A stretch of DNA of 38,233 bases from Candidatus Thorarchaeota archaeon (GCA_030612005.1 JAUWOU010000016.1:1-38233), one strand, 5' to 3'; shown: positions 657 to 19,041, counted from the stretch's first letter. A program made the numbers and translations. Notes: generated from the letters alone by a model not told the origin.

Positions 657-2393
657 ATGGGTCGCTCCAAGGGTGTAATCGTCAGCGTGAAGGTCCCGAT
701 AAAATGGGACGCCATGACTGAGAGACAGAAGACTCGCCTCAACCGGATTACTGGAAGAGATAGTAGAGTCATCAAGGCCTATCTTGGAGTGATTGAACGA
801 TATGAGGATAAGTTACTGACAGGGAAGAAGCGTACAAGGATTAATACCTCAAGACTTGAAGAGCTGACCCTCACAGCATCCAAGGGTAAAGCTGATAGAA
901 GTTACGTACCCCATGACTTCAAGGGAAGATTCCCGAACATATCTGTGAACGAGTTTCAGGAGTGTCGGGACACATCCATTGCCATGTGGCAGAGCTATCT
1001 TGAGCGTCGGGGATCAAAACCTCTCAGAACTAGGGGATATTCCACACGGAAGATCCCACGCTTTGCCTTTACTCAACGGTTTGAGGTTGTGTATACTCCA
1101 GAGTTTGAAATTCGACACTGGTTGAAACTTAGAGATTCCTTAGATTCATTTTCAAAAGGAAAGAAACATCATGATAAACTCATGATTCCACTCTCCATCT
1201 CGTCATTCCATCTCAATCGTATGCAAGAGGGAGAGGTCAAGACAGTTCGAATCTTCAAGGACTCGAAGGGAAAGTGGTGGGCCATCTTCACGGTGACCCT
1301 TGAGGTTGAAAGTATTGATTCTACTGGAAGACCTCCTGCTATCCTTGGAATTGACCTTGGGATAAACAAGACTGCATGTTCAATCCTTCTTACTAAGAAG
1401 GGATACAGACACGTCCGCTACTGGAGACAGAAGGACAAGCTCAGACGTATGAAGGTTCTTGATAAGCGGGTTTCATCTCTACAAAGAGAGAAGGAACAGC
1501 TTATTGCAAAGGGTCAGAGTCCTGATAGAGTGACCACTCAGCTCAGGAGTCTAAGCGGAAAGCGAGAACGAGTCAGTAAAGAGTATGATAAGAAGCTGGT
1601 CAGAGATATTTCGGACTATATCAAAGAGATTACCGAGAATTATGACCTCTATGTATCAATTGGACAATTGAAGGGTATTAGAAACTCCGCTCGAAAGGGT
1701 AATTTCAAGGGACGAAGGTTCAGAGGAATGATCCATCGCTGGGCTTTTGCCCGAGTCCGTGAGATGTTAGGTCACAAGCTTGCCTCCCTTGGATTTGACT
1801 CTAAGAAGTTCAATGCAGTCCCTGAACAGTGGACCTCTATCATGTGTCACAAGTGCGGACACAAGGGAATCCGACCCAAACAGAACCTCTTCATCTGCAA
1901 CACCTGTGGAATAAAACTGAACGCCGACCTGAATGGTGCTCTCAATATCGGAAAGCGCCTTATTATGCTCATCCCCTCACTGAGAGATGAGAACGGACTA
2001 GGGATGTGGCTCACTCCTAGAGATAGAGTCATACTGAAAGCCCGGAGGAAGATTCGTTCTTCTGATAGGAAGTCCGCACTCCCCCAGAGGACACCAGCCT
2101 CCAAAGGGGAGTCCGTGGCCGACTCTTATGACCAGGCGACTCTTGAGTCGTTTGCGAGGAGTAAAGACCCTGCCATGGTAAATGCTGTGGAAACACCGTC
2201 TGCTATCACACCAACTGGTGAGTGTGAATCAATGCAGCGGACAGAAGCCGAGTCCCATCGGAGGAACGATGTTCCAGTGAAGAGGGGCAAAGCTCATGAC
2301 AATGATACTGACTCCGGTCAGGAACAAGCTGGCGACAGCAGTCGTGAGAAAGGTGGAACACAGGAGTCTCTTACAGTTCACTCACAATTGTAA
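657..2393 (+). CDS. tnpB: TnpB-family RNA-guided nuclease-like protein, altered RuvC-II
   Basis: TnpB (IS200/IS605/IS607 OrfB) proteins are RNA-guided DNA nucleases with a split RuvC domain and a zinc ribbon. Here RuvC-I is GIDLGINK with Asp233, the zinc ribbon is CHKCG (397-400) and CNTCG (414-417), and RuvC-III is NADLNGALNI with Asp424. The RuvC-II glutamate, normally in a (V/I)ExL context, is Gly336 (YVSIGQLKG). A Glu lies at 390 in VPEQWTS, just before the zinc ribbon, where Fanzor-like proteins carry a relocated catalytic Glu. The last ~140 residues are polar and low-complexity, unlike the family core; in TnpB loci this 3' region often overlaps the guide RNA. No tnpA is adjacent. The start ATG has AGGTG seven bases upstream. 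It ends 30 bases before the convergent pfkB stop. Confidence 0.88.
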   Translation: MGRSKGVIVSVKVPIKWDAMTERQKTRLNRITGRDSRVIKAYLGVIERYEDKLLTGKKRTRINTSRLEELTLTASKGKADRSYVPHDFKGRFPNISVNEFQECRDTSIAMWQSYLERRGSKPLRTRGYSTRKIPRFAFTQRFEVVYTPEFEIRHWLKLRDSLDSFSKGKKHHDKLMIPLSISSFHLNRMQEGEVKTVRIFKDSKGKWWAIFTVTLEVESIDSTGRPPAILGIDLGINKTACSILLTKKGYRHVRYWRQKDKLRRMKVLDKRVSSLQREKEQLIAKGQSPDRVTTQLRSLSGKRERVSKEYDKKLVRDISDYIKEITENYDLYVSIGQLKGIRNSARKGNFKGRRFRGMIHRWAFARVREMLGHKLASLGFDSKKFNAVPEQWTSIMCHKCGHKGIRPKQNLFICNTCGIKLNADLNGALNIGKRLIMLIPSLRDENGLGMWLTPRDRVILKARRKIRSSDRKSALPQRTPASKGESVADSYDQATLESFARSKDPAMVNAVETPSAITPTGECESMQRTEAESHRRNDVPVKRGKAHDNDTDSGQEQAGDSSREKGGTQESLTVHSQL

Positions 2394-2422
2394 GATATGG
2401 GTTCATACTACCTAGGTAATAC

Positions 2423-3397: not shown

Positions 3398-4330
3398 TTA
3401 GACTATTAGCGCAATAATACCTTTCTGAGCATGGAGTCTATTCTCAGCCTGATCAAAGACTACCGAATGAGGGCCATCCATTACTTCTGAGGTTAGTTCT
3501 TCGTCTCTATGTGCGGGAAGACAGTGCATTACTATGACATCGTCTTTTGCTTTTCCGACTAGGGCTTTATTCACTTGAAATGCCATCAATGCATCCTCTT
3601 TCTCCTTCGACTTTTCTTGCCCCATACTAAAGAAAGTATCAGTGTAGATTACATCTGCCCCTTTCACAGCATCGTCCGGATTATTCACAACTTCCAGAGT
3701 TGTACCATATTTCTTACTTAGCTGTGTTGCCTTCTTTAGAATCTCTTCAGAAGGAGTGTAACCCTTTGGTGATCCAACAGTCACATCCATTCCCATAATA
3801 GTGCAGCCCTGCATAATCGAATTACTCACGTTATTCGAGTCACCAACATACACAATTTTCTGTCCTTCTAATTTTCCTCTGTGTTCTTCTATAGTCATCA
3901 TGTCAGCCATAATCTGACAGGGATGAAGAAGATCAGAGAGACCATTGATCACAGGAACTGTACCATACTTAGCAAGACCAGTCACCTCGTCGTGTCCGAA
4001 GACGCGTGCCATGATTACATCACAGTATCTACTCAGAACCTGTGCGGTATCGCCTATCGTTTCTCCACGGCCAAGCTGTGTGCCACTTGGCTGCAGGTAT
4101 AACGCATGACCTCCAAGTTGAGTCATTCCTACTTCGAATGAAACACGAGTTCTGGTTGACGATTTCATAAAGATCATTGCCATGGACTTGCCTTTCAGAA
4201 TCTCATGTGGTTCTCCACGCTTCTGCTTTCTTTTTAGGTCATGTCCAGTATCCAAGAATTGTCTTAATTCAAACCTCTCAAAATCCGACAGGTCTACTAC
4301 GCTTTTACCTCTCAGGCTCAATAACAACAC
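3398..4330 (-). CDS. argF: Ornithine carbamoyltransferase
   Basis: Transfers the carbamoyl group from carbamoyl phosphate to ornithine, giving citrulline in arginine biosynthesis. The carbamoyl-phosphate loop SSTRTR is at residues 57-62, and the ornithine/carbamoyl-phosphate site HCLPAHR is near residue 270. Length (310 aa) is normal for the family. The start is taken as GTG (GTG TTG TTA TTG AGC); no strong Shine-Dalgarno is visible, and a nearby TTG could be used instead. It lies 57 bases after ftsY and 12 bases before pfkB on the minus strand, an unusual metabolic addition at the tail of a translation cluster. Confidence 0.95.
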   Translation of the reverse strand: MLLLSLRGKSVVDLSDFERFELRQFLDTGHDLKRKQKRGEPHEILKGKSMAMIFMKSSTRTRVSFEVGMTQLGGHALYLQPSGTQLGRGETIGDTAQVLSRYCDVIMARVFGHDEVTGLAKYGTVPVINGLSDLLHPCQIMADMMTIEEHRGKLEGQKIVYVGDSNNVSNSIMQGCTIMGMDVTVGSPKGYTPSEEILKKATQLSKKYGTTLEVVNNPDDAVKGADVIYTDTFFSMGQEKSKEKEDALMAFQVNKALVGKAKDDVIVMHCLPAHRDEELTSEVMDGPHSVVFDQAENRLHAQKGIIALIV

Positions 4331-8553: not shown

Positions 8554-8889
8554 CTATGCTTGTGGCTTAAGATTTGTGAGGAAGTATCTCTTCACGTTTC
8601 CACATTCTATACAAGTCACAACCATGTGTTTTGCTCTATTGTGCCTGATACGCACTCTACAGGTACTCCCTGGAATCAGGATAGATCCACACTTCTTGCA
8701 TAGTCTTCTGCTGATATGCCATGGTATCTTTGTCCTTGTTCGCCGTGCAATCTTACGTGCACTTCTCATCTGAAATCGTGCCACTTCTGGACGACTCTTT
8801 GCATTCCGAAGTGCTTGGTGCCATAGAATCTCCACTCTTGTCTGGGCTAGACGTTTGATTCTCTCTTTAGCGTATCTTCTCTTAGACAA
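8554..8889 (-). CDS. rnp4: Ribonuclease P protein subunit Rpr2/Rpp21 (Rnp4)
   Basis: Protein subunit of archaeal RNase P, which matures tRNA 5' ends. The 111-aa product has a basic helical N-terminus (MSKRRYAKERIKRLAQTRVE) and a zinc-binding ribbon formed by CKKCGS (near residue 64) and CIECG (near 97), separated by a basic RIRHNRAKH segment. Length and motif order are those of Rpr2. It is the first gene of the minus-strand cluster; a TATA-like GATTTAAG near 8930 could drive it. In many archaea it neighbours nep1; here a ~9-kb island separates the two. Confidence 0.94.
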   Translation of the reverse strand: MSKRRYAKERIKRLAQTRVEILWHQALRNAKSRPEVARFQMRSARKIARRTRTKIPWHISRRLCKKCGSILIPGSTCRVRIRHNRAKHMVVTCIECGNVKRYFLTNLKPQA

Positions 8890-9029
8890 GGGTATTCCTC
8901 TTACTATCTCTGAGCATGTTTCAAACTGCTTAAATCGTTCGTGTCTATCTCACCAATGAGGTCACTGAACAGCTGCATAAAATCTTGACAAAGCTAGACA
9001 TTCTTTAAATAAATATTTGAACCAAGATT

Positions 9030-9644
9030 ATGTTCTCTGTATCTCAAGCTGCGCTCAGGTTAGGAGTGTGTGTCCGGACCATCCATCGATGGGACCGGGC
9101 AGGCAAGCTCCATTGTTTTAGAACTGTGGGAGGGCATCGCCGAATCCCTCTCTCAGAGATCAATCGACTCCTTGGACTCATGCATCGTGACCTCATCGAA
9201 CAACCAACAAAGAAACGTTGTGCCATCTATGCCCGAGTTTCCAGCCATCGTCAGAAGAAAGCTGGTGATCTTGACCGCCAACTCAAAACCCTCACAAAGG
9301 AATGTCGGACACGCTTCAAGATTCGTCCTCTGGTCTTCACCGATGTTGGTTCTGGACTCAGTATGCTACGACGCGGACTCGCCAAATTCTTCAGACTTGC
9401 CAAGAACGGTTCTATCCACACACTTCTCATCACACACAGAGATAGGCTGACTCGTTTTGGCTTGGAACTCCTAGAACGTATTCTCAATGATTATGGCATC
9501 AGGTTGGAGGTTCTTTATCAACCCAAACAGCAATCCCCGCAGGAAGAACTTGTCACCGACCTTATGGCACTCATCGCTTCCTTTTCAGGTCGGGTCTATG
9601 GACTTCGAGCTGCGGCTCACAGATCGTCATTGCTCATTGAATAA
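9030..9644 (+). CDS. tnpA: IS607-family serine recombinase (TnpA)
   Basis: Transposase of the IS607 type. Residues 1-50 are a MerR-like helix-turn-helix (MFSVSQAALRLGVCVRTIHR, then GKLHCFRTVGGHRRIP). The serine recombinase domain follows with nucleophile Ser in CAIYARVSSHRQ (about residues 65-76), LLITHRDRLTRFGLELLE and the C-terminal IASFSGRVYGLR. The 204-aa length is normal and no frameshift is visible, so it may be active. A TATA-like AT-rich stretch (TTTAAATAAATATTTG) lies at 9004-9019. Unlike standard IS607, the next gene is not tnpB but a large RecB-like protein; a tnpB lies 6.5 kb downstream in the same orientation. Confidence 0.95.
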   Translation: MFSVSQAALRLGVCVRTIHRWDRAGKLHCFRTVGGHRRIPLSEINRLLGLMHRDLIEQPTKKRCAIYARVSSHRQKKAGDLDRQLKTLTKECRTRFKIRPLVFTDVGSGLSMLRRGLAKFFRLAKNGSIHTLLITHRDRLTRFGLELLERILNDYGIRLEVLYQPKQQSPQEELVTDLMALIASFSGRVYGLRAAAHRSSLLIE

Positions 9645-9771
9645 CTTCCCAATATTCCGTATCAGTTTCTGTAATCAGTACAATCTCCAGATATAATGTA
9701 GATGAAAGAAGTGGTCGGGGTACTTCCCTAACAGCTACTTGAAATATCATTCTGTGCCAAAAATGTTCTTG

Positions 9772-9789
9772 CATTTCAAAGTTGAAATG
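9772..9789. promoter_or_regulatory. Perfect palindrome upstream of RecB-like gene
   Basis: CATTTCAAAGTTGAAATG has two 8-base arms (CATTTCAA / TTGAAATG) around AG. It lies 31 bases upstream of the GTG start at 9821, next to a TATA-like GTTTATTAG (9791-9799) about 25 bases before that start. This spacing suggests a leaderless transcript whose promoter is overlapped by an operator. The regulator is unknown. Confidence 0.5.
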
Positions 9790-9820
9790 TGTTTATTAGT
9801 AATCAGAACCTGATTGTAGT

Positions 9821-12800
9821 GTGGCTCCCAGAAATTCACAGATTAAATATCCTGACAGAGCAATGAAGCTGTCTAAGATTTCTGCAATGAATACGCTACT
9901 TTATTTCATCAAAAATGGAGCTGATATTCTTCCTAAGAAATATGAAACGTCACTTGTGGTTTGGGAAGAGACTGTAAGGAAAAGAGCTGAACTAAGTAAA
10001 GAAAAAGATCCAGACAGATTTGTACCTGTTTGTGATGTTGAAAAATATCTGAGAAAGAATTTCCTTTCTGTAGTCTTCAATACTACGGCTCTTTATGGGA
10101 ACACGGAGACTAAGAGAGTATATTCATGGAAGGAAGGGGCAATCGGTCCATTGAATGTCCTGTTGAACATAGCAGGTGCGCACCTCAGGTTTCTTGCAAT
10201 GATAAGATATCCGTTCCCTTTGCCTAAAAAAGGGGGGGTTAGAAGGACCAACAAGAATGGAAAGCAATACTTCCAAACAAATCATGTGTACTGTGGTACA
10301 AAAAATCGTCCCACAGTGATCATCACACATCCCATGCTCCCATCACTGGATTTTGTGGATGCAATTCGAGGTCATTTAGTAGAACTCTGCCGACAATGTT
10401 TCATCCATTCTGTCCCTATTAGTATCGCTTCTAACTACATCAAGCTCCTGACCTTCCGATTGAGGCCGCTACTAGACAGGTTCTATTTGGCTGGTTTTGA
10501 GAAGAGGAAACAGACCTTGGAATTCACAAAGAAATCATTGGCTACCTTAGAATCAGTGTTGAAGAGAGTCAAAGGGCAACATGGGATCACATCAGGATAT
10601 CCAATACGGATGACAGGTAGTCTAGATGACACAAACCCCCTCTCTATTGGACTGGACGAACTTGTTGGAAATATCAATAATGTAAGGATACATTCGATTG
10701 TTACAAACCGTCGAAACAAACACTTGGTCGATGGAGATGATGTAGCGCAATTTGCCAGTAAGATAAACACAGCTAGGTCTCGACTAGGGACACAGATCCA
10801 TAAACGGTTAGCTTGGGGGACAACTCAACCTTCCTCTGCAATGAGTGTAATGTTGGGGGGGGATTATCTAGCAAAAGACAAGACGGGATACATCTTGGCC
10901 GCCGAGATACCTGTGAATTCAGGACGTGGAAAGGTAGACTACACACTCATTGTTAGGAGAATACCCAAGTACATGGAAAACATACCTGACTCTACCTCAG
11001 GTTATTGGCCTCCCAGACTTGTTCTAGATATTAAGACGAAGACCGCATTCAATTGGGGGATCAGTGCTAAGACCCATAACTCGGACAAGTCCTTTATCGT
11101 AGACTTCCCATTTACACGAAGGTTTCTAACTGATTCAGAATGGGATATTCTCATCAAGAATACTCCATCTCTAAAGGAACAGAAACAAGTAGATGCTTAT
11201 TCTGAAGCGTTATTACAAGAGTATAAGGCAATCGCAAAAGATGACCATACACCACCCTCATCAATTCTAAAAGGAATAATTCTTGTTGATGGTCATGAAT
11301 TCACCTCACGCTCAAGACGCATCTTACCCAAATTCATCAAGACTGTTTACAAACAAGTACACCAAGACCTAGTGGAAATGCGTACAAAGAAACCAACTGG
11401 GGAGTTGAAATACCCTCGAACGTTGTTTGAACCTACATTTAGGTGGGCACTAAAAACTCGAATCGCAATTGTGCTCGCTCCTTTCACAATTCCGAAAGGT
11501 AGTTCTCTTCAAGACTTTCTACCTCTACCCATTCCTCTACACGCATTCACTGAATTAAACCCATTTGAGCATAGTTGTAACGGAGTGAAGCGGTTTATTC
11601 TATACCTTTCTGCTGATGGTGTGAGCTCTCCAGGCGATAGTGCAGGTTGGATTGCACAGCATTGGCATGGGTTGAAGTTTGCTTACGAGCTTGCTCACAA
11701 ACGCAATTTCAGGAGGGTGGTCTGGATTGATCTTGCAGGACAATTTACAGACGAGGTGATTCGAGCTGCTACATTGCGATTGGATTTTCATCATGAAAGA
11801 GTAGTGAAATTCTGTAATGATATCAAGTTCTTAGATTTTTCAGCAGAGAAAGAGAATGCACTATTTTCAGGAAACGAACTACCTTCGGTAGACTCGATAG
11901 GATCTCGTATCAAGAACTGTGATCTCGTTATTGTGTCAGGTATCGATACCATTAGACAGATTGCTCCAAAGGAACTCGAAGGGTTAGTTGATTCGCTGTC
12001 GATACACATAGCGAAGGCAACATCTTTACAAAAAACATGCACGCTTTGGTTTGGAACCCCTCAACCCCTCGCTACTACTTCAGAGCTGTACAAGCGGCCG
12101 CAACTGCGACCATTTAGATACGATTCACCTTTACAACCATACATCAATGAGATAGTAATTAATATCCCACTCCCACCTAGAAAGGGAAAAAGTAAGGTTC
12201 CAATATATGATCATGTAAGAGGATTGGTGTCCATTGTTCCGGATATGAAAAAAGGAATTAGATGTACAACAATTGGAATTCCTCCTTTGATTGGATGGTC
12301 CAAACGATTCCTGTCACGAGCGCCATCTGATAAAGAGCAGAAGTTGATGGATAGACTTCGTGCTAGACCACCTAGCGCATTTCGTTGGTTGAAATCTCAA
12401 GGAACACCCATGTTCAGTAATGACATGGCAATTGAGTTATTTCCTTTCTTAGAGCCTTGGATACATAAATCAATCAAATCTTCTAAACCTGAAGATATCA
12501 AAATAGATCAGAATTTGGAGAGCTTAAAGGTTAAGAAGAAGAAGTTGGGTAGAAAAAGGGGGACAAAGGGATACAAGGGACCCAATTCACGTTTGACATT
12601 TTCAGTAAATTTGTGTAAACCATCCCCTAGTTCAATAAACACAAAGAGAGAGTATGGACAGACAGAATTGATTCTCAAACCGCTTGAATCAACTCCACTC
12701 CCTCCTCATCCTTCTGAGTTAGAAGATTCAACGTTCTCAAGTGATGAAGCTGCAAGAATTGAACTAATACGGTTACAAGACACCTGCAAATTATTACAAG

Positions 12801-14101
12801 GTCTTGCTTCAAGTTCACCTTATTTGAAGGAGCAATGTAAAGAGTTTGTCAAGGTCTTAGCAAAAGCTGTCAAACTTCCATCGATGGATATGTTACAGAA
12901 GTTTACTGAATTCTTCAAGAATAGCAGATACTTCAATCAAATCTGGTACAGATTGCTTTGGGGAAGGGATTGGTTGGATGGTTGGCCAATGCCAAGAGCT
13001 CTGAAGAGCAAAATGGCGAAGTTGCGAGTCGACAGAAAAGACGTGCTTCAGTACTATGGTAATTATCTTATTTTCATGATAGCAAGCTTGGCTGAACATT
13101 ATGATCTTCACCAAACAGAGCTACAGTTTCTTTGGGAGATGGTTCGGTCATGGGTAACATTGCAGATGGGAGCAAAACCCAGAGCAGGAGTACAACCTGA
13201 ATCAGAATATGATACTGCTAGTGTATATGCACAACTTAAAGCAAAAGCTACTTTTTGGAATAGAACACCATATCCAACAACTACAACCCTGTCTGACATC
13301 CGATATGGTCTACGTGTTGATGTAACAAAGAGCAATCCTGGTAACTATCGCTGGTATATTTTTGAAGATGGGGCCTATAGCAAACGGTTCGTAGCTGGAT
13401 GTGTTGAACAAAGTGCTGTTAAGTTAGGGCCATTACCACTGATAAGAGCGAATACGGTGACATCACTTGATGAGATATCTTCTCTTGCAGATTTCGAGTT
13501 CACGAACTGTATGGTTCGTCCTTTTTTGATAGCTGAACATCAAGGTATCAATATTCTTTACGAAACAGAACAAGCACTTCAAGGTAAAAAGGAACTTGTT
13601 GCATTTACAAATCCATCCTCATTTAATTGGGATCCTGTAGGGATGATTCGTTATGGAACTAGGTCACGAAATGCAACTGCTAGATTGAGGTACATCAAAG
13701 TCCTCACTTTGGGGATGCAGTATCCTTCTATTCAAAATCAACTACTCCCAGAACGACCTGCTGATTTTGGTGAGAGAATATTCGAGCATATCAAGACGAT
13801 TAGTATCCAGACTCAAGATGTAACTAGAGTGAAATGCAGATTGGAAGGTACAATTGACAAAGGAAGTATTTCATTCGAAGCTCGTACAAAAAAGCGGTGG
13901 ACCAAGGTCGGGCAGAATATTGACCATAAGGATAGGAATCAAGCTATACAAGCACTTCTTTTACCATACAACCAAGGGATTGCGGTTCAAGGAAAATATT
14001 CGTGGGACCCATTATCAGATTTTCATTTTCGGTTTGGAGGAGAAGAGCTTAGAAAAGAAGTAGTTTCTAGAATCCAACTTGATAAGGAGGAAGGTGTATG
14101 A
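9821..14101 (+). CDS. Large RecB-type PD-(D/E)XK nuclease with degenerate RadA-like domain
   Basis: No family name is recognisable over the full 1426 aa, but the middle carries a complete RecB/Cas4-type nuclease signature: His327 (LGTQIHKRL), Glu362 and Asp373 (AAEIPVNSGRGKVDYTLIV), Asp403-x-Lys405 (LVLDIKTKT) and the QxxxY motif Gln456-Tyr460. Residues ~590-760 resemble a Rad51/RadA core: RRVVWIDLAGQFTDEVIRAA parallels the 'VIYIDTEGTFRPERI' strand and CDLVIVSGIDTIRQ the Walker B strand, but the Walker A position reads SSPGDSAGW, so nucleotide binding is probably lost. A basic patch (KVKKKKLGRKRGTKGYKG) lies near 905-925. The C-terminal 500 residues are unassigned. Start is GTG with no Shine-Dalgarno (likely leaderless). 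The stop is one base from the start of the RadA-like gene, implying a functional pair. Confidence 0.75.
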   Translation: MAPRNSQIKYPDRAMKLSKISAMNTLLYFIKNGADILPKKYETSLVVWEETVRKRAELSKEKDPDRFVPVCDVEKYLRKNFLSVVFNTTALYGNTETKRVYSWKEGAIGPLNVLLNIAGAHLRFLAMIRYPFPLPKKGGVRRTNKNGKQYFQTNHVYCGTKNRPTVIITHPMLPSLDFVDAIRGHLVELCRQCFIHSVPISIASNYIKLLTFRLRPLLDRFYLAGFEKRKQTLEFTKKSLATLESVLKRVKGQHGITSGYPIRMTGSLDDTNPLSIGLDELVGNINNVRIHSIVTNRRNKHLVDGDDVAQFASKINTARSRLGTQIHKRLAWGTTQPSSAMSVMLGGDYLAKDKTGYILAAEIPVNSGRGKVDYTLIVRRIPKYMENIPDSTSGYWPPRLVLDIKTKTAFNWGISAKTHNSDKSFIVDFPFTRRFLTDSEWDILIKNTPSLKEQKQVDAYSEALLQEYKAIAKDDHTPPSSILKGIILVDGHEFTSRSRRILPKFIKTVYKQVHQDLVEMRTKKPTGELKYPRTLFEPTFRWALKTRIAIVLAPFTIPKGSSLQDFLPLPIPLHAFTELNPFEHSCNGVKRFILYLSADGVSSPGDSAGWIAQHWHGLKFAYELAHKRNFRRVVWIDLAGQFTDEVIRAATLRLDFHHERVVKFCNDIKFLDFSAEKENALFSGNELPSVDSIGSRIKNCDLVIVSGIDTIRQIAPKELEGLVDSLSIHIAKATSLQKTCTLWFGTPQPLATTSELYKRPQLRPFRYDSPLQPYINEIVINIPLPPRKGKSKVPIYDHVRGLVSIVPDMKKGIRCTTIGIPPLIGWSKRFLSRAPSDKEQKLMDRLRARPPSAFRWLKSQGTPMFSNDMAIELFPFLEPWIHKSIKSSKPEDIKIDQNLESLKVKKKKLGRKRGTKGYKGPNSRLTFSVNLCKPSPSSINTKREYGQTELILKPLESTPLPPHPSELEDSTFSSDEAARIELIRLQDTCKLLQGLASSSPYLKEQCKEFVKVLAKAVKLPSMDMLQKFTEFFKNSRYFNQIWYRLLWGRDWLDGWPMPRALKSKMAKLRVDRKDVLQYYGNYLIFMIASLAEHYDLHQTELQFLWEMVRSWVTLQMGAKPRAGVQPESEYDTASVYAQLKAKATFWNRTPYPTTTTLSDIRYGLRVDVTKSNPGNYRWYIFEDGAYSKRFVAGCVEQSAVKLGPLPLIRANTVTSLDEISSLADFEFTNCMVRPFLIAEHQGINILYETEQALQGKKELVAFTNPSSFNWDPVGMIRYGTRSRNATARLRYIKVLTLGMQYPSIQNQLLPERPADFGERIFEHIKTISIQTQDVTRVKCRLEGTIDKGSISFEARTKKRWTKVGQNIDHKDRNQAIQALLLPYNQGIAVQGKYSWDPLSDFHFRFGGEELRKEVVSRIQLDKEEGV

Positions 14102-14102
14102 G

Positions 14103-15077
14103 ATGAGAAGAATTCTGAAACGAACCCCTCTTGATCAGGTTCCTGATCTTTCAGATGATATTCATTCAAGACTTGAAAAGATAGGCATCACTACTGCGGA
14201 ACTTCTAGCACATGGTTTTCAAGAAGGAGTATCATCCAATATTGGAATTTCAACAGAGAGAATGTTGGAACTCACCAGGCTTGCAAGGCAGGTAATTGGC
14301 CTTGGTGATTTCAGGACTGCTTCTGAAATGAAAGAGAAAGATGCTACTTTACTTGAAACTGGGTTCGAGTGTGTTGACAATGCTCTAGATGGAGGTTTTA
14401 GAGCTGGAAGTATTATTGAGTTACAAGGTCAACAATGGGCTGGAAAAACGCTAATGTGTTCTCATCTGGCGATAAGAGCACAACTCATCAAAACCGATAA
14501 TGGTTCTGTACCAAAGGTAATCTGGTACGACAGCGACCAGAGTTACAGGAAGAAAAGAATCAAAGAGATAGCATACCGATATCGGATAGACCCCAAAGTA
14601 GCTCTACGCAATATCATTCTATTTGATATCAAAAAGAAAGGCAAAATGGAACCTGATTTCGAATCCATGCGTAGAACACTTACACAACACCATGTTTCGC
14701 TTGTGATCATAGATTCACTTCGTGGTGCATTAAAGTACTTGGAAACTCCTTCCACTCTCAAGAACTATGTCGCCAAAATAAATCAAATGGCTTTAACTAC
14801 TGGCACTCTTTTTGTTTATACTAATAGGTCACAGATTGTGTTCAGCAGGAGTTCAACACCGAAACACAAACGAAATGGTCCATTGTCAATAGAGGTTGAT
14901 TATGGCCTCCAATTCTACCTAAATAGAGAGCGAGAAAGAATCGTTATCACACGCGATTTTCATGGGGGTTCAGATATGAAATGTGAACTGTATCTTGGTC
15001 CTGGTGGATTCTTTGAGGATCGTGCTTCTCGAAATCTAGAGGTTCAACGTGTACAACGTTACCTAAAAAGAAACTGA
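14103..15077 (+). CDS. RadA/Rad51-like ATPase
   Basis: RecA-superfamily ATPase, 324 aa. The N-terminal ~60 residues resemble the RadA helix-hairpin-helix domain (VPDLSDDIHSRLEKIGITTA). The core follows: Walker A GQQWAGKT (109-116), the VIWYDSDQSYRKKRIKEIA strand-helix (about 139-157) matching RadA's 'VIYIDTEGTFR', and Walker B LVIIDSLRG (200-208). A Thr-Asn motif (FVYTNRSQIVF) occupies the place of RadA's 'TNQ'. Divergence from canonical RadA suggests a specialised paralogue. I prefer the ATG at 14103, two bases after the upstream stop, with GGAGG at 14086-14090; in-frame TTG 14079 or GTG 14094 are alternatives. It is coupled to the RecB-like gene and convergent with the next gene. Confidence 0.85.
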   Translation: MRRILKRTPLDQVPDLSDDIHSRLEKIGITTAELLAHGFQEGVSSNIGISTERMLELTRLARQVIGLGDFRTASEMKEKDATLLETGFECVDNALDGGFRAGSIIELQGQQWAGKTLMCSHLAIRAQLIKTDNGSVPKVIWYDSDQSYRKKRIKEIAYRYRIDPKVALRNIILFDIKKKGKMEPDFESMRRTLTQHHVSLVIIDSLRGALKYLETPSTLKNYVAKINQMALTTGTLFVYTNRSQIVFSRSSTPKHKRNGPLSIEVDYGLQFYLNRERERIVITRDFHGGSDMKCELYLGPGGFFEDRASRNLEVQRVQRYLKRN

Positions 15078-15085
15078 GATTTTCT

Positions 15086-15742
15086 CTAGGATCGAGTATC
15101 CAATAACTCATTGATTTTATTCATTACAGATTCAGTATCCAAAGATGGTTCAGCTCCAATAGCAGTTTTCCAGATATGATCAAGCAACTTCTGATTCAAA
15201 CCCCGTTCATTTATAGCTAAGAATTGTTTTATGGCTGTAAGTCCGGCAACTACCTGTTCTATCAGTCTGACATATTCGTATCTCACCGAAAAACTGTTCT
15301 CTTGAGCAGAACGAATGATTTGGGGGATTGTTACCTTTGATCCAAACAAATGCTTCGTTTTCTTTAATGTAATTCTTCGTGTTGAAAAACCAGCATTGTC
15401 GGTTTGGAGTTTCCATAATTCAGCGTCCTGTTCATTTGCGAATAATCTAGATTCCTTCTTGTTAATTCTTCTCTCTGCAATTACAAGAGTGTTGTCAAAT
15501 AAAGGAGGGTAAAGCTTCAGTCCCCTGAACGGTTTAGTTCCAAACACCATTACTCCCATTTTGCGTATAACCCGTTTGTGTCTATCAGGAACCTCAGATG
15601 GTAACAGGGGTTCTTTACCAAATTGTGTGACAAGAAATCCCGACACAAACGTTATGGTCCTATAATCATACTTGAGATCCCAGATTGACTCAAACCTAAT
15701 TCCTTTCTTCTCTTGATTTCCTTTTACTACAGCGGAATTCAC
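15086..15742 (-). CDS. Unknown protein convergent with the RadA-like gene
   Basis: A 218-aa frame, no recognised family. Residues about 20-45 (KYDYRTITFVSGFLVTQFG) and 60-100 look like alternating beta strands with charged loops; the C-terminal half is helical (VRLIEQVVAGLTAIKQFLAI). Its stop lies eight bases from the RadA-like stop. The start is uncertain: GTG at 15742 has no Shine-Dalgarno, while the frame stays open to 15823 and the extra codons (EGLTYDILQSDEFGNETIQ) look protein-like. A GAGGGGG sequence sits where a ribosome site for a non-standard start would be. The iteron-like cluster at 15880-15947 is upstream and may control it or the tnpB on the other strand. Confidence 0.65.
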   Translation of the reverse strand: MNSAVVKGNQEKKGIRFESIWDLKYDYRTITFVSGFLVTQFGKEPLLPSEVPDRHKRVIRKMGVMVFGTKPFRGLKLYPPLFDNTLVIAERRINKKESRLFANEQDAELWKLQTDNAGFSTRRITLKKTKHLFGSKVTIPQIIRSAQENSFSVRYEYVRLIEQVVAGLTAIKQFLAINERGLNQKLLDHIWKTAIGAEPSLDTESVMNKINELLDTRS

Positions 15743-15879
15743 TTGGATAGTTTCATTACCAAATTCATCGCTTTGAAGTATATCATAAGTCAGTCCTTCT
15801 TGTGTGATATTGTTAACCCCCTCTTATTAGAATGACATTCTGCTTTGATATCTACCCACATCCTTTAATCCTTTCGAAC

Positions 15880-15947
15880 CCGTACACCCGTACACATATT
15901 GTTACTTTCTTGTACGGCCGTACACATATTCTGTAAAACCCGTACAC
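15880..15947. repeat. Iteron-like cluster of CCGTACAC motifs
   Basis: CCGTACAC occurs at 15880, 15888, 15918 and 15940. The copies at 15888 and 15918 extend to CCGTACACATATT, a 13-base perfect direct repeat exactly 30 bp apart. The copy at 15918 is also half of a perfect 14-bp palindrome, TGTACGGCCGTACA (15911-15924). The cluster lies in the 391-base gap between the minus-strand unknown gene and the plus-strand tnpB. It could be an operator array, a replication iteron or a transposase-binding end. The rest of this gap is AT-rich. Confidence 0.8.
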
Positions 15948-15979
15948 CATTGCCAATTTTGGTATCTATTTTGTAGGTT

Positions 15980-15991
15980 ACTTATAAAAGA
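15980..15991 (+). promoter_or_regulatory. Probable TATA box upstream of the long tnpB
   Basis: ACTTATAAAAGA is a good archaeal TATA box, located downstream of the iterons and about 145 bases before the tnpB start, so a long 5' leader would be transcribed. Two short direct repeats (GAGTTTATAT near 16043 and 16088) within the leader are additional TATA-like candidates closer to the gene. Confidence 0.45.
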
Positions 15992-16133
15992 GGTCCTTAT
16001 AGAATATCTAATCAAAATAGCACTTTAGCTTCATAATATACGAGTTTATATGTTACTGTTGGTAACTAGTATAGTTCTTAATTTGTATGAGTTTATATCC
16101 CCTTCCAAGGAGAAAATTCTGAGGATATAGTTG

Positions 16134-18278
16134 ATGAAAAAGGAAAAGCGGCGTCGACCCCGCTCGTGTAAGAAGCCTAAGGCATCTGAACAACAGACAA
16201 TGGTCGATAACTATTATAGTTCTTCATCAACAACACCCCTCCAAACAACAGGATTGAAGTACCTAGTCGAATCATTCACACTCTGCTCCGTCGATAGAGA
16301 AGTGAATAAGAAGGGGAAGGGAAAAAGACCTGATCCTAGGTATAGACGAGTAAAGGCTGAAATCGTACAAGAAAGAGTTCAAACTATGACCGGACGAAAG
16401 GTCATTGATACAGACCTCTCTTTGATGGGTATGTACTTTGAAAAGTATGTTGAGTTGGTGAACCTTGTTCTTGAACGTGTCTACTCTGATAGGAACCGAG
16501 TTGATTTTCTTGGTGAGGAACTTAACTCCTATAGAGGTCAAGGATATACCTTGCTAAAGAAGGAAGATTATCTTTCTTACAAGGACAACAAGGATATCCA
16601 AGTCCAATGCTTTGAAAGAATGTATCGAAATGTGCTTGAACATGTAGCTCGTGTAATTCATTCTAACTGGCTGCGAAGGCAACTGATGAAGAGTGCAATT
16701 GAGTATGTCAATGAAGATAGGACAGCTTTGATTAGACTATTGAAGAATAAGCACATCTCTTCTAAGATGATCAAGGACGTACGAGCTCAATGTGAGAGCA
16801 CAAAGAACAATGGAACTGGGTACTACCACACAGTTTCTGTCCTTAAACAATTGAGGAAAAAGCTTGATGAGCATATCCTTACCGAACGAGGTGAATCCCT
16901 TGGATTTCGTGGAAGACAGAGGAAGAGAGTGAGTAAATATCTCAAAGATGAAACAGAATCTATTGGGGCTCTAGCTTCAGTGGACGTCCTTCTCCATGAA
17001 TTCATATCTGATGGCTACCCTTTCTCAATTCCTAAGATGGAATCCCATACTGAGGATTTCTCAGCTAGTACTGAGAACAGTCCGGGTCAAGGATACTGGT
17101 ATTCAAAGGACAAAGAACGGGATAACGAGGTCCTCTTCTTCCTCAAACTCCCTGAACCCATCGAAGGGATCGAAGTAGAGGGGTCTCCTTACAGCACAAA
17201 GACTCTTTCCTTCAGATTTCTAGACTGGTTACCCAGAGCTGTTGCTAAGAATAGAGCAAAGGTAGAGGTTGCTGAAAAAGAAGGGAAGTATAACCGGGCT
17301 AGGAAGTTGAATTTCAGAGCTCGCAAGTTCGAGGATATGCATCAGCAATTGTTGAACACTATCGAGCTACAGCATGCAACCTATCAATACTCACGACTCA
17401 AATCCAGAAAGGAGAAGGATGATACGAAGGTGAAAAAGCTTCAAGAGAAGATCACACACCTAAGGAAAGCACGCAAGTGTGGACCTCCTCGACTTCTCTT
17501 AAGAGATAACCGAGTCACACTACAGATACCATTCCTGCCACTAACGAGAGAGATGATTGATGAGGAACTTGGACCACGGACCTATAGAAGGAAAGCAGGA
17601 GCTGACCGTGGAGTTCGAGTACCCATCGTCCTTTCTACTCGTGATGGCAACGGAGGATTTGTAGATGAGATGGTTTCCTTTGATGAACTGGTTTCAAAGA
17701 GGGACCTACTTAGAGAACAGACAAAGTGGCTCACATCCAGCGTCACTTTGATGAAAAACAACTGGGAACGAAAGCATACTGACAGAACCTATCCCGGTCA
17801 CTTACTCAAGAAGCAAAGACATCTTTCTGCGATATGGAGGAAAATCCGTCGACTGGATAGAGAGATTGCCAGACAGGTCGCTTCTCAGGTTGTATGGTTC
17901 TGTGAAGAGTACGGAGTCAAGACACTGTATTTTGAGAACCTTAAGAACTACACTCCTCCAGCTGGTTGGGGAACTCTCTCTTGGAGGTTGAGTTCTAATC
18001 TCTGGTCAAAGGTCTTGGATACAGTGACCTATATGCGTCAGTCTCTTGGACATAGGAGAGGAGGAGTATGGACAGTGAGTCCAGCATGGACCTCCCAGAA
18101 GTGTCATGTGTGTGGGGAAAAAGGTGTTCGGGTTGAATCGGAAGGTTCCACTGAAGAGAAGAAAGGAGGAGAATACTTCTACTGCGAGAGCTGTGGATGT
18201 TCACTCCATGCGGATGTCAATGCCGCAAGAAACATTATTGATGTAAAATCATCCAAACCCAGTGCCGTTGCTGGGTAG
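16134..18278 (+). CDS. tnpB: Long TnpB/Cas12-like RNA-guided nuclease
   Basis: C-terminal half is a TnpB/Cas12 RuvC nuclease: RuvC-I AGADRGVRVPIV (Asp about 491), RuvC-II LYFENLKNY (Glu about 601), zinc ribbon CHVCG and CESCG separated by ~25 residues, and RuvC-III LHADVNAARNI (Asp about 694). All three catalytic acids are present. The segment before RuvC-I is ~490 residues, whereas typical TnpB has about 200, so the 714-aa protein approaches small Cas12 size; no CRISPR array is nearby. The N-terminus is very basic (KKEKRRRPRSCKKPK). I start at ATG 16134 with GAGG ten bases upstream; a TTG one codon earlier is the only in-frame alternative nearby. It ends 46 bases before nep1. Its probable partner transposase is the tnpA at 9030. 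Confidence 0.9.
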   Translation: MKKEKRRRPRSCKKPKASEQQTMVDNYYSSSSTTPLQTTGLKYLVESFTLCSVDREVNKKGKGKRPDPRYRRVKAEIVQERVQTMTGRKVIDTDLSLMGMYFEKYVELVNLVLERVYSDRNRVDFLGEELNSYRGQGYTLLKKEDYLSYKDNKDIQVQCFERMYRNVLEHVARVIHSNWLRRQLMKSAIEYVNEDRTALIRLLKNKHISSKMIKDVRAQCESTKNNGTGYYHTVSVLKQLRKKLDEHILTERGESLGFRGRQRKRVSKYLKDETESIGALASVDVLLHEFISDGYPFSIPKMESHTEDFSASTENSPGQGYWYSKDKERDNEVLFFLKLPEPIEGIEVEGSPYSTKTLSFRFLDWLPRAVAKNRAKVEVAEKEGKYNRARKLNFRARKFEDMHQQLLNTIELQHATYQYSRLKSRKEKDDTKVKKLQEKITHLRKARKCGPPRLLLRDNRVTLQIPFLPLTREMIDEELGPRTYRRKAGADRGVRVPIVLSTRDGNGGFVDEMVSFDELVSKRDLLREQTKWLTSSVTLMKNNWERKHTDRTYPGHLLKKQRHLSAIWRKIRRLDREIARQVASQVVWFCEEYGVKTLYFENLKNYTPPAGWGTLSWRLSSNLWSKVLDTVTYMRQSLGHRRGGVWTVSPAWTSQKCHVCGEKGVRVESEGSTEEKKGGEYFYCESCGCSLHADVNAARNIIDVKSSKPSAVAG

Positions 18279-18307
18279 AAAACCTAATGTCTAGGTTTAT
18301 CTAGGTT
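18258..18307 (+). ncRNA. Putative omega-RNA 3' stem-loops at tnpB right end
   Basis: Two adjacent hairpins cover the last codons and the 3' flank of tnpB: CCCAG-(8 nt)-CTGGG at 18258-18275 and AACCTA-(5 nt)-TAGGTT at 18281-18297, followed by another TAGGTT at 18302-18307. In IS200/605 and IS607 elements the guide RNA scaffold overlaps the tnpB 3' end and the guide begins just past the element end. If this is so here, the guide would read into the nep1 5' region. This is inferred from position and pairing only. Confidence 0.35.
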
Positions 18308-18324
18308 ACAATGAACGGTTTACA

Positions 18325-19041
18325 ATGCTTCACATGATTCTACTTGAATGCGCTTTGGAACTCATTCCCTCAGAGATTTCGGCAATGAAACAGGTACAGA
18401 AACACGCAGGACGTAGGGGAAAGAAACCGGGTGAGCTGCTTCTTGATCAATCCCATCATGGGAGAGAAATGACTCGCCTAGAAAATGGACTCCAGAGGGG
18501 ACGGCCCGATATCGTATTTCATTCTCTTATATCCCTCTTGGAAACCCCACTCTGCAAGAGCGGGAATCTCACCATACATCTACATCTTCAGGATGGTAGA
18601 ATTATCGAAGTTAATCCCGAAGTACGCCTCCCTCGTAATTATGACAGGTATGTAGGTCTCTTTGAGCAACTGCTTGTCAAGGGGCAAGTACCAGTTGAGG
18701 GAACTCCTCTATTGCATGTGACAAATAAGACACTTCCAAAACTCATCTCTGAGTTAAAGAAAGATATCTCAGAAGCTCAGTCTATCCTTACCATTGAGAA
18801 TGGTTCTAAAACTTCAATCGATTCTCTTCAAACAATATTTCCACTAGATGCCTCCATTCCGGTTATTGTTGGAGTTGGAGCTTTTCCCCACGGTGATTTT
18901 CCAAATGAGTTGAAGGAGCTGTTTGATACACACATCGAACTCGATAAAGAGGTCATGATGGCCTGGCATGTCTGTGCTGAGATTTTATGGATTTACTCCG
19001 CTCGGACTGGAGTGATTAAAGATCGATATTCCACTACTTGA
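18325..19041 (+). CDS. nep1: rRNA pseudouridine methyltransferase Nep1 (Emg1)
   Basis: SPOUT-class methyltransferase that N1-methylates a pseudouridine in small-subunit rRNA and helps assemble the subunit. The 238-aa product shows the family blocks LLLDQSHHGREM (about 32-43), QRGRPDIVFHSL (about 51-62), the RLPRNYDRYVGLFEQLL block (about 95-111) and the C-terminal IPVIVGVGAFPHGDF with the SAM-binding knot loop. Complete and of normal length. The start ATG (MLHMILLECALEL) is only 46 bases after tnpB; I see no clear TATA box in between, so the insertion may have replaced the native promoter. Confidence 0.96.
   Translation: MLHMILLECALELIPSEISAMKQVQKHAGRRGKKPGELLLDQSHHGREMTRLENGLQRGRPDIVFHSLISLLETPLCKSGNLTIHLHLQDGRIIEVNPEVRLPRNYDRYVGLFEQLLVKGQVPVEGTPLLHVTNKTLPKLISELKKDISEAQSILTIENGSKTSIDSLQTIFPLDASIPVIVGVGAFPHGDFPNELKELFDTHIELDKEVMMAWHVCAEILWIYSARTGVIKDRYSTT

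Follow-up and report, generated by a model that had tools for sequence, protein, structure and literature searches.

The window analysed here, a stretch of 38,233 nt from Candidatus Thorarchaeota archaeon (GCA_030612005.1 JAUWOU010000016.1:1-38233), raises the question of what a 1426-aa protein with nuclease and RecA-like regions, named P1, does directly upstream of a RadA-like ATPase gene, P2. An earlier note, made from the sequence, had treated the two genes as one system on a mobile-looking island, with defence, element replication or integration as possible functions. We found that P1 and a TnpB gene move as a single mobile unit, and this partnership, like the Cas1-like N-terminal domain of P1, goes beyond the earlier note. 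In Asgard, the archaeal phylum closest to eukaryotes, the same mobile elements carry both TnpB and a Cas1-like/Cas4-like protein. Coordinates are collected in Table 1.

P1 and TnpB move as a single unit

P1 is a member of an undescribed multicopy family. In a first search, 32 of 149 genomes related to the window genome had P1 relatives, and a profile search of 228 Asgard genomes found P1 in 33, corresponding to 30 of the 47 genomes of the window's own family and three genomes of family f15. There are up to 8 matches per genome, nearly all of them open, and the proteins are between 1,400 and about 1,880 aa in length, with an additional C-terminal tail in the longer ones. A scan of GTDB contigs with P1 as query returned a single close relative, Ca. 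Thorarchaeota HM4_26_B25 (78% identity), in agreement with the Asgard origin assumed in the earlier note, and no P1 relatives were found in viral contigs. The ratio of nonsynonymous to synonymous substitution rates (dN/dS) between the window P1 and L038 is 0.18 overall. By region it is 0.12 for the Cas1-like and RecA-like parts and 0.22 for the nuclease, and it rises to 0.70 for the linker (residues 256-304). Values of 0.12 to 0.22 over the domains show a real gene under purifying selection.

TnpB adjoins P1 in 50 of 61 loci, with 46 divergent arrangements (36 with the TnpB type T0 and 10 with type T1) and 4 in which T1 follows P2 in tandem. Most of the 11 loci without an adjacent TnpB stop at a contig edge, as happens to some P1 loci because the genomes are mostly drafts resembling metagenome-assembled genomes; L032 and L047 have P2 and no TnpB within the 3 kb available, and L188, also among the 11, is decayed and adjoins a T0 fragment. 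The T1 partners are scattered over several separate places of the P1 tree, so the TnpB partner has been swapped. On the other hand, P2 is limited to one sub-branch of short P1 proteins and most P1 relatives are without it. The pairing seen earlier recurs in Asgard genomes (8 loci of the 61-locus set, plus L035, L040 and L043), but the pair is a feature of a sub-branch and not the core of the system, whose constant partner is TnpB.

Both TnpB types have the RuvC D/E/D residues and the TNB zinc finger. In T1, D492, E602 and D695 are intact in 15 of 15 homologues. In T0, which has D233 and D424, the usual second Glu is absent and E390, six residues before the first zinc-finger CxxC, is invariant; a rearranged Glu position of this kind was described for Fanzor-related TnpBs (PMC10711439). 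T0-type TnpB genes without a neighbouring P1 were also observed (L083:3917-5671 and L084:8147-9901), and in a genome of another Asgard family (G158) a decayed P1 with stops lies beside a T0 TnpB fragment (L188:940-5976).

Empty orthologous sites were found for the full-length elements L079 and L062, and for the miniature copies L072, L074, L075, L077 and L071, the left junction of the last one not being resolved. These miniature copies are short sequences, at least 8 in the genome G000 and more in sister genomes, in which only the final 410 nt of T0 remain, with ~90% DNA identity. Several of them begin with the 3' end of P1, joined to the 3' end of tnpB, and the comparison of L074 with L079 (16794-16552) across the P1 stop gives 84%. 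They are internal deletions of a unit composed of the left end, P1 and TnpB in divergent orientation, and the right end, and they keep both element ends and the structured RNA. Within the T0 elements, P1 is the sole large gene besides TnpB that is common to them, its 3' end lying at the left end, and no other recombinase gene was recognised.

Direct repeats of 7-11 bp, starting at the right end, flank 8 of 12 copies of the elements without a recombinase gene: TATAAGGAT, CATATTCATA, TAGGAGGCCAC, ATGTCAG, TAACGTTT, TTCGAAAGCTT, TTATGAAG and TATATCCTTC, the last two belonging to the full-length L079 and L062, respectively. G013 and G005, whose sites are empty, have a single L079 repeat, against two where the element is inserted, and the same holds for the L074 repeat (TAGGAGGCCAC), which is single in four genomes with an empty site. 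By our own estimate, about 0.2 such repeats of 7 bp would arise per copy by chance, a value falling to 0.001 for 11 bp. No direct repeats were found in L071, L077, L078 and L081. Repeats of at least 9 bp around full-length elements are few, so it is mostly the young copies that support target duplication. In some copies (L071 and L072), a short inverted motif, ATCTTACAA, lies ~7 nt from each end. In L061 (~8597-8650 and downstream of its TnpB), direct repeats of 19 and 18 bp that resemble the right end were also observed to the left of the P1 stop, which suggests that elements have inserted in a nested or tandem fashion.

Together, the final ~410 nt of T0 and the right end form a conserved structure, with 128 pairs predicted from 14 sequences. 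Both sides changed in 15 of the 128 pairs, and the clearest stem is formed by alignment columns 391-400/405-414. No match was found in Rfam. The structure is in line with an omega RNA such as TnpB elements encode, and an omega-like RNA would explain why the miniature copies keep the region.

The element of the window (9.36 kb) has ends of another kind. That the island is mobile, as had been supposed, is borne out by three relatives (G013:C49, G005:C141 and G012:C61) in which the flanks 8700-8959 and 18321-18580 are contiguous; DNA similarity to other copies starts at 8956-8970 and stops at 18319-18320. GG immediately precedes TCACTGAACAGC at the left end and the element closes with CAATGAACGG at the right; it is flanked by GG, with no target duplication. 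It contains an IS607 recombinase, P1, P2, a gene for a 218-aa protein and TnpB T1, joining a serine recombinase and TnpB to a GG core as IS607 elements do. With these ends, this recombinase and no duplication, it places P1 in elements with two end types. Conserved P1 accompanies an IS607 recombinase also in L060, L088 and L196. The second TnpB of the window, in a neighbouring element, is a T0, the type with which P1 genes are most often paired.

Domains of P1 and P2

Searches by sequence alone with the whole window P1 found no match to it in Pfam, NCBIfam, PADLOC or PDB. The best conserved part of the family is the stretch 65-245, in which E74-x3-R78, R99, N112, H170 and D177-x2-D180-x2-R183 are invariant. 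A putative catalytic tetrad (E74, H170, D177 and D180) is invariant in 57-58 sequences, and in the AlphaFold2 model it lies in a domain of helical order. Features resembling Cas1 are the Glu in a helix at the catalytic position, a helix start of the form (D/G)P-x-N, the His, and D-x2-(D/E)-x2-R. One family member, L069, matches TIGR00287 cas1 (E=3.7e-7, model positions 103-204), and PF01867 reaches 4.5e-4 within the family. The hhalign comparison with Cas1 gave P=0.067 with 17 Asgard Cas1 sequences, P=0.005 after more sequences were added, including K-12 Cas1 and divergent ones, and P=0.0014 after the addition of ten plasmid-borne Cas1s, with the motif register kept. In the alignment, E74 falls opposite the catalytic Glu, GPLN opposite DPvN and LDFVDMIR opposite LDLsEEFR. 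Block shuffles reached the Cas1 score in 0 of 150 trials in the P=0.0014 run and 1 of 60 in the P=0.005 run, and seven decoy families all scored below Cas1 (best decoy P=0.019). Ten further P1 N-termini, including the decayed L188, had no Cas1 match in NCBIfam, and a profile hidden Markov model (HMM) of the domain matched no Cas1 chain in PDB. These alignments and motifs make homology of the domain to Cas1 probable, not proven.

Large Cas1-bearing ORFs (open reading frames) of family f13 were considered as a bridge to P1 and ruled out, being helicase-Cas1 fusions of a different architecture. Proteins of 1,323-1,363 aa that begin with a helicase and end in a Cas1 domain were observed in another Asgard family (L153:9038-13126, L154:8769-12776 and L155:4973-8941), each of them near ORFs of ~270 aa.

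The RecB/Cas4 nuclease motifs pointed out earlier in P1 are near-invariant. H327, D373, K405 and Q456 are present in 60 of 60 homologues with the region aligned, Y460 in 59 and E362 in 58, while position 403 is D in 33 and E in 27. In the AlphaFold2 model of residues 1-860 (predicted local distance difference test score, pLDDT, 87; predicted template modelling score, pTM, 0.86) the nuclease elements follow each other as helix (305-331), strand (357-365), strand (370-378), strand (398-407), helix (451-471) and strand (483-490). This is the alpha-beta3-alpha-beta order of the RecB/Cas4 subgroup, with the H...E...D...(D/E)xK...QxxxY residues in the expected elements. RecA-fold matches fill the Foldseek list against PDB for this model; in the viral list, UL24, a PD-(D/E)XK family, appears at a probability of 0.89, the aligned part not being shown by the tool. 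A profile HMM of the nuclease domain matched no nuclease chain in PDB.

The second claim for P1, a RadA-like region without Walker A, also held. Foldseek matched the model with a probability of 1.00 to RAD51 paralogues (RAD51D and XRCC2), Dmc1 and KaiC in PDB (best E 1.3e-4), and likewise to viral RecA-like proteins. Since Foldseek prints no aligned residues, the span 585-835 was assigned from secondary structure and sequence. The domain aligns in register with P2 (VVWIDLAG/VIWYDSDQ and DLVIVSG/LVIIDS; hhalign P=0.001), and no homologue has a Walker A in this region. The C-terminal part of P1 (pLDDT 79) gave no PDB match at E<=0.001.

P2 is a member of the RAD51/RadA family, as judged by its match to PF08423 (E=4.8e-21), its Walker A GQQWAGKT and its RadA-like N-terminal stretch; the best PDB match by sequence is a Rad51 (1pzn, E=6e-19). 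The P1 stop TGA ends at 14101 and an ATG lies at 14103, one base after it, as had been noted. However, the true start of P2 is not fixed, because the longest in-frame ORF opens upstream at TTG 14079. Many genomes of the window family have a RadA paralogue of ~360 aa with ~32% identity to P2 (e.g. G024:C63:59437-60420), nearer to P2 than the second RadA-like gene of the same genomes, and this paralogue is a possible source of P2.

The role of P1

We suggest, with a probability of about one half, that P1 is the recombination protein of TnpB elements, likely an integrase and end-processing nuclease acting together with TnpB-guided cutting. We infer the integrase role and every enzymatic step of P1, as we do its Cas1 homology. 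The Cas1-like domain would join the element ends to a staggered target cut, generating the duplications of 7-11 bp, and the Cas4/RecB-like nuclease would prepare these ends. The ATPase-dead RecA-like domain may be a docking module, for P2 where it is present and elsewhere presumably for the host RadA. TnpB, with the RNA from the right end of the element, would cut sites without the element, and recombination would copy it back. In the window element, the added IS607 serine recombinase probably integrates, and P1 and P2 could be kept for end processing and strand exchange.

A little more tentatively, these elements could be a new DNA-transposon superfamily, with one Cas1-Cas4-RecA-like fusion protein as transposase and TnpB with its guide RNA as constant partner. 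If the integrase role is true, P1 would represent a new transposase class and another way to mobilise TnpB elements, and would illustrate how an integrase module and an RNA-guided nuclease module can be combined and exchanged. The casposon (Cas1) and TnpB have been treated as separate sources of CRISPR-Cas adaptation and of class 2 type V effectors (PMC6452270); with the fusion as transposase, this would be a living element uniting both proposed sources of type V CRISPR-Cas, the casposon and the TnpB transposon.

Several observations weigh against P1 being an integrase. The main one is the existence of two kinds of ends, with P1 kept in elements that seem to need no further integrase because they have an IS607 recombinase; the Cas1-like residues retained in the window P1 argue the other way. 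Duplication length varies, in contrast with the fixed lengths of most transposases, and the left ends differ among copies. P1 is absent from all miniature copies and from some TnpB copies, so an unseen enzyme could act in trans. As for the Cas1 assignment, hhalign's own probability is just 18%, and 33 of the 34 P1 members had no Cas1 match in the NCBIfam scan.

The persistence of P1 beside the IS607 recombinase in the window, L060, L088 and L196 would also be expected if P1, with P2, were the element's own repair set, in which TnpB cuts sites without the element, the P1 nuclease resects the break and the RadA-like parts drive homing by copying from a chromosome that has the element, mobility itself coming from the IS607 recombinase or a trans-acting enzyme. 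A nuclease and a RadA-like ATPase are a natural set for resection and strand invasion, and the TnpB link is near-constant. We consider this main rival less likely. T0 elements duplicate their targets with no other recognised recombinase, and resection has no need of the Cas1-like domain, although this is the best conserved part of P1.

It is improbable that an unrelated transposase mobilises the elements in trans, with P1 as a passenger gene for protection or regulation of the element, the degradation of competing DNA being one example. Movement without P1 in cis does occur in the miniature copies and in TnpB copies that have no P1 (L083), and the varying duplication lengths could be so explained. 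However, no unrelated transposase is common to the loci, cargo is seldom so constant, and the place of P1 in the T0 elements, as their one other shared large gene ending at the left end, speaks against this reading. A CRISPR-like defence system, with a TnpB-derived Cas12-like effector and a Cas1/Cas4-like adaptation protein, is largely refuted, for although the domain set resembles type V adaptation and effector modules and TnpB matches Cas12f and Cas12u models, there is no repeat-spacer array in 8800-18600, no Cas2 gene was recognised, and transposon ends, duplications and empty sites are clear. The defence option of the earlier note is not supported, as PADLOC assigns none of P1, P2 and the 218-aa gene to a defence family and the unit is a transposon.

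Among known systems, IS607 TnpB transposons are close to the window element, whose TnpA scores above the cut-off for the IS607 family and which also has TnpB and GG-type ends. It differs in carrying P1 (4.3 kb), P2 and the 218-aa gene, none of which is, to our knowledge, part of known IS607 elements, and most P1 elements have target duplications and no IS607 recombinase. Casposons make target duplications of about 14-15 bp, a length that the P1 elements do not reach; in addition, the Cas1-like, nuclease and RecA-like parts are fused in P1, and TnpB is present. What P1 elements share with casposons (Cas1 transposase; PMC6452270) is a Cas1-like domain, target duplications and mobility in archaea, besides a Cas4-like nuclease, which some casposons encode. 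No family B DNA polymerase (PolB) was found among the genes of the window element, and other P1 elements have P1, TnpB and small genes only. As in IS200/IS605 TnpB elements, there is a TnpB with a 3' structured RNA, a divergent second gene and miniature derivatives; however, IS605 makes no target duplications, P1 elements show them, and a Y1 HUH TnpA was not found.

Type V CRISPR-Cas (Cas12, Cas4 and Cas1) has the same three nuclease lineages side by side (TnpB/Cas12, Cas4-like and Cas1-like), whereas the P1 unit is mobile DNA rather than an immune locus. Because the P1 domains are very divergent, the likeness is no evidence of direct ancestry. RAD51 paralogues and archaeal RadA include P2 and share their fold with P1, in which the fold has lost its Walker A and is part of one protein with the nuclease and Cas1-like domains. 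That the P1-P2 architecture has no named system agrees with our Pfam, NCBIfam, PADLOC and literature searches; the last one found papers dealing with both casposon and TnpB, and none on such an element or joining TnpB with Thorarchaeota or TnpB, Asgard and RecB, which is not proof of absence.

Other features of the window

Table 1. Position and basis of the features in the window, with the domains of P1
Feature	Position	Strand	Description or basis
TnpB, type T0	657..2393	+	second TnpB, 578 aa; neighbouring element, cut by the contig end; right end ~2403
Structured RNA, omega-RNA-like	1991..2403	+	overlaps the 3' end of T0 tnpB and the element end; ~90% DNA identity in copies
Mobile element with IS607-type ends	8960..18318	+	empty sites and edges of DNA similarity
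IS607-family serine recombinase (TnpA)	9030..9644	+	NF033518 177 bits (cut-off 110); PF00239 E=7e-20
P1 ORF	9821-14101	+	1426 aa; large Cas1-like/PD-(D/E)XK/RecA-like protein
P1 45-255, probable Cas1-like domain	9953..10585	+	TIGR00287 match of L069, hhalign, invariance
P1 305-495, RecB/Cas4-type PD-(D/E)XK nuclease	10733..11305	+	invariance and AlphaFold2 topology
P1 nuclease motif residues			H327, E362, D373, D403-x-K405, Q456-x3-Y460
P1 585-835, RecA/RAD51-like fold without Walker A	11573..12325	+	Foldseek and hhalign to P2
P1 960-1426, helical then beta-rich C-terminal region	12698..14098	+	no known fold; AlphaFold2
P2 ORF	14103-15077	+	324 aa RAD51/RadA-family ATPase; Walker A about 14427-14450
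218-aa protein, no family assigned	15086..15742	-	homologues in L038, L043, L049, L050, L061, L070, L079
Three iteron-like CCGTACAC repeats	15868..15964	.	spacing 30 bp; between the 218-aa gene and TnpB
TnpB, type T1	16131..18278	+	715 aa; PF07282 E=8e-13

The 218-aa protein is common to many P1 elements and has no Pfam family. The iteron-like repeats next to its gene are a possible operator. Close to one of the miniature elements (L071 ~3763-3876), we also observed a repeat of ~104 bp which has dozens of copies across the genus.
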